From contig NZ_CP146101.1 in NCBI RefSeq assembly GCF_037023745.1, positions 5,138,001 through 5,202,000 on the forward strand: a stretch of DNA of 64,000 nt, written 5' to 3'. The notes beneath the pieces were generated by a model that was not told the DNA's origin, did not search any database, and was given only the letters and a program-made list of their open reading frames with translations. The translations under genes and the position numbers were made by a program. Shown here piece by piece: positions 6,988 through 49,342 of this stretch. The stretch's first letter is position 1; the number at the start of each line of letters is the position of its first letter. The stretch comes from Streptomyces sp. SCSIO 30461. GTDB lineage: Bacteria; Actinomycetota; Actinomycetes; Streptomycetales; Streptomycetaceae.

Positions 6988-7860
6988 TTACGCGGCGGGC
7001 CCGAAGGCCGGGATGACCGAGCCCTTGTACGTGTCCTCGATGTACTTCTTCACCTCAGGGGAGTTGAGGAGTTTCGCCAGCTTCTCCACCCGCGGGTCCT
7101 TCTCGTTGCCCTTCTTGACGGCGAGGAAGTTGGCGTACGGGTTGCCTTCCGGCTTCTCCAGTGCGAGTGCGTCGTCGGCAGGCGCGAGATCGGCCTCGAT
7201 GGCGTAGTTGCCGTTGATGACGGCGGCGTCGACGTCGTTCAGGGCACGGGGCAGCGTGGCTGCTTCCAGCTCCTTGAACTCCAGGCCCTTCTTGTCGGCG
7301 ATATCGGAGAGCTTGGCATCGGTGCCGGCGCCCGGCTTGAGGGTGATCAGGCCGTTGTCCGCCAGCAGCTTGAGCGCGCGACCCTCGTTGGTGGTGTCGT
7401 TGGGCACGGCGATGGTCTGACCCGCCTTGATGTCCTTGAGGGACCGAGCCTTGCCGGAGTAGAGGCCGAGCGGCTCCAGGTGCACGTCGACGACCGGGAC
7501 GATGGTGGTGCCGTTCTTCTTGTTGAAGTCGTCCAGGTACGGCTTGTGCTGGAAGAAGTTGGCGTCGACCTGACCCTGCTGCGTGGCGTTGTTCGGCAGC
7601 ACGTAGTCGGTGAACTCCCTTACCTCAAGGGTGAGTCCCGCCTTCGCGGCCAGGTTCTTCCTGACGTACTCGAGGATGTCCGCGTGCGGGGTCGGCGACG
7701 CGGCCACGACGAGCCGCTCGTTCTCCGCCGCGGACTTGTCTCCGGAGCCGGACGTGGCGCCGGGATCGGAAGCGGTGCCGCAGGCGGTGAGGCCGATGGC
7801 CAGCGCGGTGGTGGCGGCTGCGATGGCAGCGAGCTTGGTGTACTTGCGGTGGTTACGCAC
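6988..7860 (-). CDS. metQ: methionine ABC transporter substrate-binding lipoprotein
   Basis: 290 residues of the NlpA/MetQ family. It starts at GTG 7860 (AGAGG ribosome site 8 bases upstream). A signal peptide with positive N-region (RNHRKYTK) and hydrophobic core leads to the lipobox LTAC with Cys27. Family motifs include LEVREFTDYVLPNNA, QVDANFFQHKPYLDDFN and TIAVPNDTTNEGRALKLL. It binds D- or L-methionine outside the membrane and delivers it to the MetI-MetN transporter encoded just upstream. A 15-residue upstream extension in the same frame is rejected because it would spoil the signal peptide. Confidence 0.93.
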   Translation of the reverse strand: MRNHRKYTKLAAIAAATTALAIGLTACGTASDPGATSGSGDKSAAENERLVVAASPTPHADILEYVRKNLAAKAGLTLEVREFTDYVLPNNATQQGQVDANFFQHKPYLDDFNKKNGTTIVPVVDVHLEPLGLYSGKARSLKDIKAGQTIAVPNDTTNEGRALKLLADNGLITLKPGAGTDAKLSDIADKKGLEFKELEAATLPRALNDVDAAVINGNYAIEADLAPADDALALEKPEGNPYANFLAVKKGNEKDPRVEKLAKLLNSPEVKKYIEDTYKGSVIPAFGPAA

Positions 7861-7947: not shown

Positions 7948-8616
7948 TCAGGCGGTGCGACCTCGGCGGGCCAGCAGCCGTACCGCTCCGTCTCCGATGA
8001 GCTGAACGGCCGTGACGATGGCGATCAGGATGGCGACGGTGATGAGCATGAACGAGGTCTCGAATCGCTGGAAGCCGTAGGTCACGGCCTTGGACCCGAG
8101 GCCTTCACCGCCGACTGCGCCCGCCATCGCCGAGTAGCCGACGAGGACGATCACGGTGGTGGTGACGGCAGCGACGATCGAGGGCAGGGCCTGCGGAAGC
8201 AGCACCTTGCGGATGATCGTCGGTATGGAGCCGCCCATGGACTGGACCGCTTCGACCAGTCCGTGGTCGACCTCGCGGATCGCCGTTTCGACGAGCCGCG
8301 CGAAGAAGGGGATGGCGCCGACGGCGAGTGGCACGATCATGGCCGTCGGGCCGATGAAGGTGCCGACCACTGCGGTGGTGACGGGGATCAGCGCGATGAG
8401 CAGGATGATGAACGGCAGTGAGCGGCCGATGTTCACGATCACGCCGACGACCTTGTTCACGGCGGTGTTCTGGAGGAGTCCGCCTTTGTCCGTGAGCACC
8501 AGCAGAACACCGAGCGGCAGTCCGCCGATGACGGTGACGACTGTGGACCAGAGCACCATGTAGAGGGTGTCGATGGTGCCCTGGGTCAGCAGTGGCTGCA
8601 TTTCCGGCCAGGTCAC
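7948..8616 (-). CDS. metI: methionine ABC transporter permease
   Basis: 222 residues of the BPD-type inner-membrane permease family, about five to six membrane spans. It begins MTWPEMQPLLTQGTIDTLYM and has the EAA loop region LVEAVQSMGGSIPTIIRKVL that contacts the ATPase. GTG 8616 overlaps the metN stop as GTGA, so the two are translationally coupled. An 87-base gap separates it from metQ. Confidence 0.93.
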   Translation of the reverse strand: MTWPEMQPLLTQGTIDTLYMVLWSTVVTVIGGLPLGVLLVLTDKGGLLQNTAVNKVVGVIVNIGRSLPFIILLIALIPVTTAVVGTFIGPTAMIVPLAVGAIPFFARLVETAIREVDHGLVEAVQSMGGSIPTIIRKVLLPQALPSIVAAVTTTVIVLVGYSAMAGAVGGEGLGSKAVTYGFQRFETSFMLITVAILIAIVTAVQLIGDGAVRLLARRGRTA

Positions 8617-9665
8617 AGCGCCGCCTCCCTCACCGGTTCGGGGCGCGGCGTCGGGACGCCGCCCGGCTCGACATGCTCGATCCGGAGCCCCTGTTCGCGC
8701 AGGAAGCCGACCGGCACGACGTTGTCCTCGTAGCGGCCGGGCAGTTCGATGCGCATTCGGCCGATCTGCCGCCCGCCGACGGTGTCCATCGCGGCGCCGA
8801 GTATCGAGATGTCGATGTTGTACGTGCGTGAGAGCTGGGAGATCACGGGCTGGGTGGCGGTGTCGCCGTGGAAGGTGACATCGACGACCGTGCGGTCGGG
8901 GCCGGTGACGTCACCGGTCACCGGGAACAGCTCCCTGGCGAGCTCCGACCCGGGTGTGGCGAGCAGCTCGCTGACCGTGCCGGACTCCACGACCCTGCCC
9001 CGCTCCATCAGCGCGGCGGAGTCGCAGACGGACTTCACCACGTCCATCTCGTGGGTGATGAGGAGCACCGTGAGTCCGAGCTGACGGTTGAGGTCGCGCA
9101 GCAACTCGAGGATGGAACGGGTGGTCTCCGGGTCGAGGGCGCTGGTGGCCTCGTCGGAGAGCAGCACCTTCGGGCTCCCCGCCAGCGCACGGGCGATGCC
9201 GACGCGCTGCTTCTGGCCGCCCGAGAGCTGCCCGGGATATGCCCTGTCCTTGTCGGAGAGTCCGACGAGGTCGAGCAGTTCGAGGGCGCGCCGGGAGCGC
9301 TCGGCGCCGGTGACGCCGAGGATCTCCAGGGGGAGCTCGATGTTGTCCTTGACGCTCCGCGAGGACAGCAGGTTGAAGTGCTGGAAGACCATACCGATGC
9401 GGCTGCGGGCCTGGCGCAGTTCCCTGCCCGCGCGGTTGCCGCGTCCGGCGAGGGCCGTGAGGTCCGTGCCGTCGACGGTCACGGTGCCCGATGTGGGCCG
9501 CTCCAGCAGGTTGACGCAGCGGATGAGGGAGGACTTTCCGGCGCCGCTGCGGCCGATGACTCCGAAGACCTCGCCCTCCCGGACGTGCAGATCGACTCCG
9601 TCGAGGGCGGTGACGTCGCGGCCTCGCGACTGGTAGACCTTCGTGAGGCCCTTGGTGGTGATCAC
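8613..9665 (-). CDS. metN: methionine ABC transporter ATP-binding protein
   Basis: 350 residues: an ABC ATPase with Walker A GRSGAGKSSL, signature LSGGQKQRVGIARALA and Walker B VLLSDEATSALD, followed by a C-terminal NIL domain (residues about 265-340) that senses methionine and trans-inhibits transport in characterised MetN proteins. I place the start at GTG 9665 (ITTKGLTKVYQSRG follows), where family homology begins; GGAAA upstream is only a weak ribosome site. The longer frame to 9770 has low-complexity Arg/His-rich sequence and is rejected. It is first in metN-metI-metQ and preceded by a candidate attenuator. Confidence 0.92.
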   Translation of the reverse strand: MITTKGLTKVYQSRGRDVTALDGVDLHVREGEVFGVIGRSGAGKSSLIRCVNLLERPTSGTVTVDGTDLTALAGRGNRAGRELRQARSRIGMVFQHFNLLSSRSVKDNIELPLEILGVTGAERSRRALELLDLVGLSDKDRAYPGQLSGGQKQRVGIARALAGSPKVLLSDEATSALDPETTRSILELLRDLNRQLGLTVLLITHEMDVVKSVCDSAALMERGRVVESGTVSELLATPGSELARELFPVTGDVTGPDRTVVDVTFHGDTATQPVISQLSRTYNIDISILGAAMDTVGGRQIGRMRIELPGRYEDNVVPVGFLREQGLRIEHVEPGGVPTPRPEPVREAAL

Positions 9666-9805
9666 AGGATTTCCGTCGCTGTCGAGCGTCCGGCGCGGGG
9701 CGCGCCGGGCATGGGTGGTGTGCCGTCTTCGTCCGCCGGTTCGGTAAGGACGGACGCGGAGACACCGCACAGTCAGCCGGTGGGCGATGTGTGCACAGGG
9801 CGGGG

Positions 9806-9827
9806 GTCTCGCTTCGGGGCGCGAGAC
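9806..9827 (-). promoter_or_regulatory. candidate attenuator hairpin in the metNIQ leader
   Basis: GTCTCGC (9806-9812) pairs with GCGAGAC (9821-9827) over an 8-base loop, followed in the transcript by a C-rich run. It starts 15 bases after the stop of the Met/Cys-rich leader ORF and lies 140 bases before metN. Its position fits ribosome-dependent attenuation. The competing fold is not worked out. Confidence 0.45.
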
Positions 9828-9841
9828 TCAGGCAGGGGCCC

Positions 9842-9886
9842 TCAGAAGGCGCACATTCGACACATACAGCGAGCACCGGGCGTCAT
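9842..9886 (-). CDS. Met/Cys-rich leader peptide upstream of metNIQ
   Basis: A 14-codon ORF, MTPGARCMCRMCAF, too short for ordinary gene finding. Six of the eight codons from position 7 to 14 bear on sulfur amino acids or lie between them: Cys-Met-Cys-Arg-Met-Cys. GAGG sits 5 bases before the ATG at 9886. An in-frame ATG at 9928 would add 14 residues but has no ribosome site. It precedes a hairpin and then the methionine importer, the classic arrangement for ribosome-mediated attenuation. Known parallels are polycysteine short ORFs controlling sulfur genes in mycobacteria. Regulation is inferred; the ORF, ribosome site and codon content are seen directly. Confidence 0.6.
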   Translation of the reverse strand: MTPGARCMCRMCAF

Positions 9887-10202
9887 GTTCGCCTCGGTCG
9901 CAAGGATGCGGCTGCTCGTCGTGGTCATGCGGGCCAGTTAACCAGACAAGCGTCCGACCTCCAGCCCGCTGTCCGTATTCCGGAATGGATTTGCTCGTAA
10001 TGCGGACGGTGCAGGACGGCACCGCACTCGACACCAGGCCTCTGACCTGGCTTTCTGAGAGGAAGTACCGGCGACATATCTATCCGGTCAGCACCGCTCT
10101 CCCCGTGATCTGTGGTCAAGACCACGGAATCCGGCCCGGTGGGCCCCATGGCCCCGGGGGCCGCGCACTGCCGGTTCCGCGGCCCGTAATACTCTCGGCT
10201 GC
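9887..10202. other. divergent promoter region between metNIQ leader and membrane-protein pair
   Basis: About 316 bases holding the metNIQ promoter (minus) and that of the 10203 gene (plus). No SAM riboswitch was recognised. A dre-like palindrome is at 10112-10125. TAATAC at about 10187-10192 could be a -10 box for the plus-strand gene. Confidence 0.4.
10112..10125. promoter_or_regulatory. dre-like palindrome (possible DasR/GntR-type site)
   Basis: GTGGTCAAGACCAC has perfect 6-bp arms and resembles the DasR-responsive element core TGGTCTAGACCA with one central change. It lies 78 bases before the 10203 gene. DasR is a GlcNAc-sensing GntR regulator in streptomycetes; the link here is inference from sequence only. 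Confidence 0.4.
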
Positions 10203-10562
10203 ATGCTCGACGCCCTGACGGTCGCCCTCTCGGCGACCGCCCTCGCCCTCGCCGCCTGGTGCGGCCACGCCGCGTACCGGAACCAGCCCACGAAGGACTG
10301 GCACTTCATCGGCATGGCCGTGGTGACGGTCCTGGCGCTGGCGCAACTGACGGCGGGCATCGTGCAGCTGGCTCGCGGCGAGCGGGCGGATCAGGGTTCG
10401 GTGATCTTCATCGCGTATCTGATCGGCGCCTTCGCAGCAGTTCCGGCGGCCGGTCTCCTCTCGCTGAGCGAGCGGACCCGCTGGGGCTCGGTCACGGTGG
10501 CGGCGGGCGCGGTGGTGCTCGCGGTGCTGGAAGTGCGGCTCTACGACATCTGGAAGGCCTGA
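10203..10562 (+). CDS. small integral membrane protein
   Basis: 119 residues with three to four hydrophobic segments (ALTVALSATALALAAW; FIGMAVVTVLALAQLTAG; IFIAYLIGAFAAVPAAGLL; VTVAAGAVVLAVLEV) and a short basic loop. I do not recognise a named family. Only 2 bases separate it from the next gene, so the two form an operon and may form one membrane complex. The ATG is about 10 bases after a TAATAC -10-like box and lacks a clear ribosome site, so a leaderless or near-leaderless mRNA is possible. Confidence 0.7.
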   Translation: MLDALTVALSATALALAAWCGHAAYRNQPTKDWHFIGMAVVTVLALAQLTAGIVQLARGERADQGSVIFIAYLIGAFAAVPAAGLLSLSERTRWGSVTVAAGAVVLAVLEVRLYDIWKA

Positions 10563-48989: not shown

Positions 48990-49342
48990 GGATCCTCCTC
49001 GGTAGCACCACGCGGCGGTCTGGCGGACAGCCACGCAACGTCTGTTCTCTTCAACCAACCGCGCCGGCTCATGAAAAATGCCCCGACGGGCACAGGCGGG
49101 GCTCCAGAAAAACCGGAACACCGCACGGCGAACCGCGGGGCGCTGCTTCGGGCGGCTTCCATCGTCCGTACGGAACGATGGGCGCCGCCTGACCGGTGAC
49201 CCGCCACCCTTCGAGGGCGGTAGGTGGGAGTTCGGAGCCTCCACTTGTGGGCCGGACACACGGGTGACCGACCGGTCGTTACAACAGGTTAGCAGCTCCC
49301 GGCGGCGGGAGCGAACCGAAAGGGACCGCGGGCACGCGCTGA
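48990..49342 (-). promoter_or_regulatory. long structured leader of infC-rpmI-rplT
   Basis: 353 bases with the operon promoter and several stem-loops: one at 49159-49181 (CCATCGT with ACGATGG) and an attenuator at 49080-49102. The layout recalls the infC leader of Bacillus, in which L20 binding drives premature termination. The promoter itself was not resolved. Confidence 0.55.
49080..49102 (-). terminator. attenuator in the infC leader
   Basis: GCCCCG (49097-49102) and CGGGGC (49080-49085) pair across an 11-base loop, followed in the transcript by A-T-T-T-T-T. A T-tract is rare in this GC-rich genome, so intrinsic termination about 90 bases before the infC start is credible. Confidence 0.7.

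Follow-up and report, generated by a model that had tools for sequence, protein, structure and literature searches.

The region upstream of the methionine importer operon metNIQ in the window, by which we mean the whole stretch of 64,000 nucleotides analysed from Streptomyces sp. SCSIO 30461, is fairly probably a leaderless leader-peptide attenuator, metL. At the RNA level this reading is based on an in-frame ORF, on conserved structures and on compensatory changes in the long-range helix P4 in one family, together with the leaderless start described for S. lividans in PMC8079986. The features of the region are collected in Table 1.

Ribosome-mediated attenuation is the likely principle, with Cys-tRNA and/or Met-tRNA as the likely species sensed to judge from the codons; what the following scheme infers is translation with stalling, which tRNA is sensed, which way the response goes and the output step. 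A ribosome would begin at the 5'-terminal AUG, open the three-way junction and read Cys-Met-Cys-Arg-Met-Cys immediately ahead of the stop codon. When charged Cys-tRNA and/or Met-tRNA is ample, the ribosome would finish and depart, the last Met-Cys codons and the downstream site would then form P4, and metNIQ expression would be low. When Cys- or Met-tRNA is scarce, it would stall over the 5' strand of P4 and the 3' strand of P1, leading to an open form of the mRNA. In Streptosporangiaceae-type leaders this open form would expose the start of a second short ORF, uORF2, while in Streptomyces it would free the RBS-proximal TCGACA and/or avoid Rho-dependent termination in the C-rich spacer, and metNIQ would be on.

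Table 1. Features of the metL-metNIQ region, in positions of the window
Feature	Position	Strand	Description
-10-like box TTAACT	9936..9941	minus	Ends 7 nt before ATG 9928; assigned from sequence
Leader ORF (metL, uORF1)	9842..9928	minus	28 codons and stop, encoding MTTTSSRILATEANMTPGARCMCRMCAF; stop codon 9844-9842
Three-way RNA junction (predicted)	9866..9922	minus	P1 9922-9914/9874-9866, P2 9910-9907/9902-9899, P3 9898-9890/9882-9875
Control codons TGT ATG TGT CGA ATG TGC (C M C R M C)	9851..9868	minus	Assigned from sequence
GAGGGCCCC	9835..9843	minus	Overlaps stop codon; GAGGGCCC kept in 110/119 leaders
Hairpin H1	9806..9827	minus	7-bp stem, loop GCCCCGAA, no U-tract
Downstream site, putative P4 3' strand	9787..9795	minus	Partner AUGUGCGCC (9856-9848); 7/9 positions pair in the window
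C-rich, G-poor spacer, candidate Rho-loading stretch	9686..9804	minus	C 45%, G 29%
TCGACA ahead of metN, putative P5 partner of control-codon UGUCGA	9680..9685	minus	Complementarity
metN	8613..9665	minus	Start GTG 9665; weak SD GACGGA 9677-9672
metI	7948..8616	minus	NCBIfam best match
metQ	6988..7857	minus	Start set at 7857; frame open from 7905
uORF2 of other loci			L016, L149, L151, L152, L154-L183; in L162, for example, 79 nt after the CGA codon

The leader ORF and its conservation

The original prediction placed before metN a 14-codon ORF with a GAGG site of its own. A leader is indeed present, with other borders: one open frame runs for 28 codons from ATG 9928. The 14-codon version, which starts at the internal ATG 9886, was rejected, as this Met has a counterpart in just 41 of 85 Streptomycetaceae leaders; its GAGG sits in the RNA stem P3. 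The Cys-Met-Cys-Arg-Met-Cys series noticed near the end of the ORF is where it had been placed, and the expected order metN-metI-metQ after the leader and its stem-loop agrees with the NCBIfam best matches of the three downstream genes, which are the MetN, MetI and MetQ models, all under curated cut-offs. Elsewhere in the window, Rfam family RF02830 (Streptomyces sRNA Scr1601) has a match at 49073-49280 on the minus strand with 160.8 bits.

The position of the -10-like box suggests that the transcript of the window probably starts at the ATG of the leader ORF, which makes it a candidate leaderless ORF. With this box loosely defined across leaders, 118 of the 119 have an in-frame ATG or GTG 5-9 nt after it; only L169 differs, with a -10-like box and a 10-codon uORF (MMCVPRMCAR). 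A position-locked, operator-like palindrome, TGTCCGnnATnCGGACA, was also observed upstream, in its strict form in 34 and in a near form in 18 more of the 85 Streptomycetaceae leaders and in 0 of 33 leaders of the other family; the window holds a degenerate form, TTCCGGAATACGGACA, at 9985-9970 (minus strand).

Among the 21 of 80 MetN-derived loci that were looked at, a Cys/Met-rich leader ORF was present in all 17 from Streptomyces, Kitasatospora and Actinomadura (L001-L017) and in none of the four from Agrococcus, Brevibacterium, Cellulomonas and Arthrobacter (L018, L060, L067, L075). A degenerate CMCRMC pattern occurred in 184 of 392 same-genus genomes, against 8 of 392 for the reversed control pattern. 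Because of these two comparisons, the occurrence of the leader ORF before metN is, judging by its distribution, not due to chance.

The leaders compared hereafter number 119, namely the window, L001-L017 and L081-L183 without L118 and L153; 85 are from Streptomycetaceae and 34 from family f17, called Streptosporangiaceae-type because L016, a locus named as Actinomadura, shares its features. L081-L110 were picked by the CMCRMC pattern, for which reason composition was also counted without them, and L111-L183 were found by the covariance model R1, whose training set was drawn from L001-L017 and L081-L110. All 119 leaders were placed by the anchor CGAATG[CT]G, none being without it. Some genomes are represented more than once, and other repeats were collapsed only if identical in sequence. 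L158 and L174, repeats of L149 and L151, were taken out of the P4, duplex, masking, codon-variation and RNAalifold counts and of the 31-leader composition; they were kept in the counts of uORF2 (34), of the box, of C>G and of all 119 leaders, of TCGACA/P5 and of the palindrome.

Among 394 genomes of the class, R1 had matches in 43, namely in 39 of 40 listed same-genus genomes, in three f17 genomes and, partially, in one more; within f17 it matched 35 of 297 genomes. Each listed genome with a covariance-model match has exactly one. Of the 103 loci L081-L183, 102 have an identified metN; L153, the locus matched partially by R1, lacks it and was rejected as a family member for this reason. A second model, R2, built from f17-type loci only, gave matches at E <= 0.1 in 51 of the 394 genomes: the 39 of 40 same-genus genomes already matched by R1, three of f17 and nine weak others (L214-L222). 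The latter, three of which fall within a gene for an ABC-type ATPase (32-33% identity to MetN) and six of which have no MetN match, were put down to chance, partly by eye. R2, which has no Streptomyces in the model, aligns over its whole length with the window (9862-9783, 67.3 bits, E 1.7e-13), much of this score being sequence.

Every one of the 119 leaders starts in frame with its control codons, and the ORFs vary from 10 to 38 codons, always in frame. CGA-ATG is retained in all 119, although the pattern used to select L081-L110 admitted MGN. On sequence grounds, the leader ORF is under coding constraint. For the 55 Streptomycetaceae leaders picked without the pattern, the last ten codons hold on average 2.7 Cys and 1.8 Met; the averages for 31 Streptosporangiaceae-type leaders are 3.0 Cys and 1.3 Met. 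At least two Cys are found there in 52 of these 55 and in 31 of 31, respectively, and at least one Met in all 86 leaders counted. The ORF is therefore, as read from its codons, short and rich near its end in codons of the amino acids concerned, as in attenuators.

Both amino acids, Cys and Met, are likely to be sensed, Cys being the commoner control residue. Of 51 distinct Streptomycetaceae leaders of 28 codons, 8 have L, R, T or G in place of the first control Met, an underestimate because some leaders were chosen by a pattern demanding Met. The last Met is invariant and may be conserved for a cause other than sensing, because it is also part of an RNA helix (P4 strand). Arg codons are equally common (2.4 and 3.2 of the last ten in the two groups), so that arginine sensing is possible on sequence alone. 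TGT is favoured over TGC in the last ten codons by 237 to 106 for both groups together. CGA and TGT are rare codons in Streptomyces, and the conserved CGA together with the TGT preference suggests slow codons.

Structures within and after the ORF

The first two thirds of the ORF are predicted to fold into a three-way junction, whose P1 ends in the first control codon; in the window it has one bulged base in P3 and one A-C mismatch in P1. The Streptomyces junction spans nt 7-63 (P1 7-15/55-63, P2 19-22/27-30, P3 31-39/47-54), with nearly invariant arms and variable loops, and covariation within Streptomyces is uninformative because of this invariance. The f17-type layout, predicted by RNAalifold from 19 leaders of equal length, is P1 9-16/56-63, P2 19-21/27-29 and P3 32-38/44-50. 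In these models the layout is common to both families, their sequences being unrelated. Compared with synonymous recodings, the real sequences fold more stably in Streptomycetaceae (mean z -2.33, 45 of 57 below -1.64) and in Streptosporangiaceae-type leaders (mean z -1.39, 12 of 31 below -1.64), and end-to-end pairs number 9.2 against 5.1 in the recoded sequences for the 57 leaders and 12.5 against 6.9 for the 31. L169, a naturally shortened leader, has no junction and retains GAGGGCCCC, H1, the downstream site and uORF2.

After the ORF, the 7-bp stem-loop of the original prediction was found as a perfect stem, GTCTCGC-GCCCCGAA-GCGAGAC, and its loop CCCCGAAG is kept in 112 of 119 leaders. Pairing GGGC:GCCC between GAGGGCCCC and the H1 loop is possible and suggested by conservation; it is invariant in 32 sequences. 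L105 (Streptomyces) has the full CMCRMC peptide and lacks the conserved H1 after the stop, and L013 and L015 (Kitasatospora) keep the CGA-ATG leader and lack the conserved H1 loop and GAGGGCCC. A coding role for CTCGACAGTGACGG was dropped because frames vary among relatives, as seen by eye.

H1 had been proposed as the part that a stalled ribosome switches; this does not agree with the folds, in which it is still predicted once the control codons are masked (probability 0.91 unmasked and 0.89 masked in 40 Streptomycetaceae leaders, 0.78 and 0.68 in 27 others). Nor is it a candidate for an intrinsic terminator, being predicted in all modelled states and followed by CCCCCGCCC, without the U-tract of a trp-type Rho-independent terminator, with 0 terminator-like sites in 9600-10240.

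The structure expected to respond to the ribosome is P4. In f17-type leaders, AUG-UGY-GAC pairs with GUCRCRCAU, which comprises the seven bases before the uORF2 start codon and its first two. Pairing in the 32 loci covers 7.9 of 9 positions against 7.45 for leader swaps, two of the nine being fixed because both strands hold ATG; no permutation in 5000 was as good (kinship ignored), and registers shifted by 1 to 4 paired 0.8-6.1 positions. Two P4 pairs changed on both sides (A-U, G-C, C-G and C-G, U-A, G-C), and the cells with such changes numbered 9 against 2.7 in shuffles, a value reached in 0 of 500 (kinship ignored); counted as pairs and including H1, they number 3, which was reached in 67 of 500 shuffles, kinship being again ignored. 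Against shuffled spacers, the duplex energy has a mean z of -2.43 in Streptosporangiaceae-type leaders and of -0.73 in Streptomycetaceae (79 leaders), where own pairs nevertheless beat permuted ones (0 of 1000).

Covariation of P4 in Streptomyces between AF- and DR-type leaders was convincing by eye and was rejected, as the DR type failed the swap test: AF-type leaders prefer their own spacers (-12.2 against -9.1 in DR spacers), whereas DR-type leaders pair better with AF spacers (-7.96) than with their own (-7.03). Alignment A3 was left out of the counts because its site was picked by regular expression, and 15 of 85 Streptomycetaceae leaders, including the window, have no match to that expression. 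In the window, the thermodynamic probability of P4 is 0.003. The compensatory changes in the alignments argue for P4 in Streptosporangiaceae-type leaders, and support for it appears weak in the window's own lineage.

All 34 Streptosporangiaceae-type loci (32 without repeats) carry uORF2 between the leader ORF and metN, with the consensus M.F.RHLLSHAPYPPG.. before the stop; in the 34 leaders the block HLL[SG][HN]xP[YF]PPG stands two codons ahead of the stop. Variable sites by codon position, 4, 2 and 9 of 11 each in 28 distinct blocks, indicate that the peptide is selected. By eye, no uORF2-like ORF was seen in the window or in the other Streptomycetaceae spacers looked at. With the control codons masked, the unpaired fraction at the uORF2 start was 0.52 instead of 0.33; of 27 leaders, 19 showed a rise and 4 a fall. 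These data are in agreement with a tentative relay, in which the uORF1 control codons would lock the uORF2 start, a starved ribosome would free it and a pause at the conserved Pro-Pro-Gly would set metNIQ; Streptomyces, with a related site and without uORF2, would use the freed strand differently.

Output step and alternative explanations

A Cys/Met leader ORF upstream of metNIQ, as originally predicted, is strengthened by both its in-frame conservation and its conserved RNA folding, which ribosome-mediated attenuation needs alike. Structures that may alternate with ribosome position are predicted in relatives, where masking opens P4 and P5; neither helix is predicted in the fold of the window. 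For the window's lineage the candidate output steps are the freeing of TCGACA and/or the avoidance of Rho-dependent termination.

A Rho-dependent attenuation, in which translation of the uORF decides Rho loading on the spacer between H1 and metN and the helices only time or mask the loading site, is a serious contender, although we give it somewhat less than an even chance. C exceeds G in the spacer of all 115 leaders where H1 was found, and the C-G value of the window spacer is at the 98.6th percentile among 140-nt stretches of both window strands, a comparison made solely within the window, so that Streptomyces spacers may be C-rich generally. The lack of a U-tract terminator is in agreement with this explanation, and the same idea was proposed, and judged weak, for mycobacterial cys leaders in PMC1262725. 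Given the C-rich spacer, Rho-dependent termination is a plausible output of metL.

Somewhat less probable is a translation attenuation by the helix P5 (UGUCGA:UCGACA), in which the control codons would bind the segment ahead of metN and impede initiation there until a stalled ribosome lifts the block. Translation attenuation is described for cysteine genes of M. smegmatis (PMC13236596). In the folds of the first 45 distinct Streptomycetaceae leaders, all chosen to hold both 6-mers, P5 has a mean probability of 0.58 and exceeds 0.3 in 34; its extension GUGY:GCAC has a mean of 0.11. In the first 50 distinct qualifying leaders, TCGACA had an unpaired fraction of 0.28 without a mask and of 0.62 with the control codons masked; it rose in 35 leaders and fell in 0, control masks giving 0.28-0.29. 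Moreover, TGTCGA is missing in 5 of the 8 leaders without TCGACA, three of these eight having one-base variants, against 10 of the 77 with it.

These observations are opposed by several others. The probability of P5 is 0.0 in the window's own fold, which masking barely altered (TCGACA 0.63 to 0.65), no compensatory changes were found in P5, and none of the 34 Streptosporangiaceae-type leaders has TCGACA within the 45 nt preceding metN. Masking freed neither the metN SD (0.32 to 0.30 in the 50-leader test) nor the start codon, and the outcome was the same in the test on both families, for which 40 Streptomycetaceae leaders were taken. Direct sequestration of the SD by the control codons was strong in duplex predictions, yet shuffled targets came close (mean z -1.04, 12 of 77 below -1.64) and swapped targets differed by -0.19 kcal/mol on average; with the SD unaltered in the folds, this candidate was rejected.

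A small-molecule riboswitch, for SAM or methionine for example, made of the junction and H1 with an incidental ORF, is improbable: the strong conservation of GAGGGCCCC and of the H1 loop, which codon reading does not need, speaks in its favour, as do the named RNA motifs of Streptomyces metH and metK (PMC8079986), but the frame is kept despite length changes, L169 keeps a 10-codon uORF without the junction, and the junction sequences are unrelated between families. No Rfam covariance model matched the leader at its gathering score, which also rejects a known RNA family, and a lax threshold gave a single match on the other strand (E 2.2). Equally doubtful is an ordinary conserved 5' region under operator-type control, its peptide translated and no sensor: it is favoured by the palindrome that 52 of the 85 Streptomycetaceae leaders carry 40-43 nt ahead of the leader start, but it leaves the Cys/Met codons, the in-frame length changes, the structure in the ORF and the P4 compensation unexplained.

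Comparison with known systems

Sulfur amino acid control in actinomycetes is known for the most part from riboswitches, named RNA motifs and repressors. A mixed Cys/Met leader on metNIQ had been thought not described; however, the same element is metL (SLIV_29928, MSTTSDRTPATEATTTPGARCMCRRMCAF) of S. lividans TK24, found upstream of metNIQ in a reannotation, with a leaderless start by RNA-seq (PMC8079986). The leader peptide itself is consequently already in print and not new as such. The two peptides have TPGARCMCR(R)MCAF in common, the published one differing by an extra Arg in the control codons and by changes in the first half. The passages of PMC8079986 on metL characterise it by 'several methionines and threonines' and call its termination unclear; the operon, the nearly identical peptide and the lack of a typical Rho-independent terminator agree with our data, as does its leaderless start with the probable one in the window, whereas cysteine codons, a junction in the ORF, long-range pairing, conservation in another family and a second uORF are not part of this account. 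Apart from it, no description of this leader was found in the open-licence literature searched, nor of the mixed Cys/Met reading, the junction, P4 or the uORF2 relay, the uORF2 sequence not having itself been a query.

Mixed Cys/Met sensing at an importer, with a fold kept across two families and without an intrinsic terminator, would be a directly testable case, and uORF2 of Streptosporangiaceae, with its defined lock, may be a site of nascent-chain pausing. In transcription attenuators of the trp/his/leu type, control codons lie shortly before the stop and a stalled ribosome can block a helix. metL has control codons close to the stop and a helix whose formation stalling would prevent, but it has no U-tract terminator and the hairpin after its ORF does not alternate in the models. 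Streptomyces also has trpL and ilvL attenuators (PMC8079986).

The mycobacterial cysteine operons have leaderless short ORFs encoding polycysteine (Canestrari et al. 2020, as described in PMC13236596), and their cys leaders were the subject of an earlier prediction (PMC1262725). As far as these sources describe them, metL resembles them in its short, probably leaderless ORF, in Cys codons near the stop and in the lack of an obvious terminator. A pairing of the mycobacterial type, in which the uORF hides the downstream SD, was not seen in predicted folds, SD accessibility being unaltered by masking. In contrast to the mycobacterial ORFs, Cys alternates with Met and Arg in the control codons of metL, with CC doublets in some relatives only, a methionine importer lies downstream, and conserved structures are found in and after the ORF.
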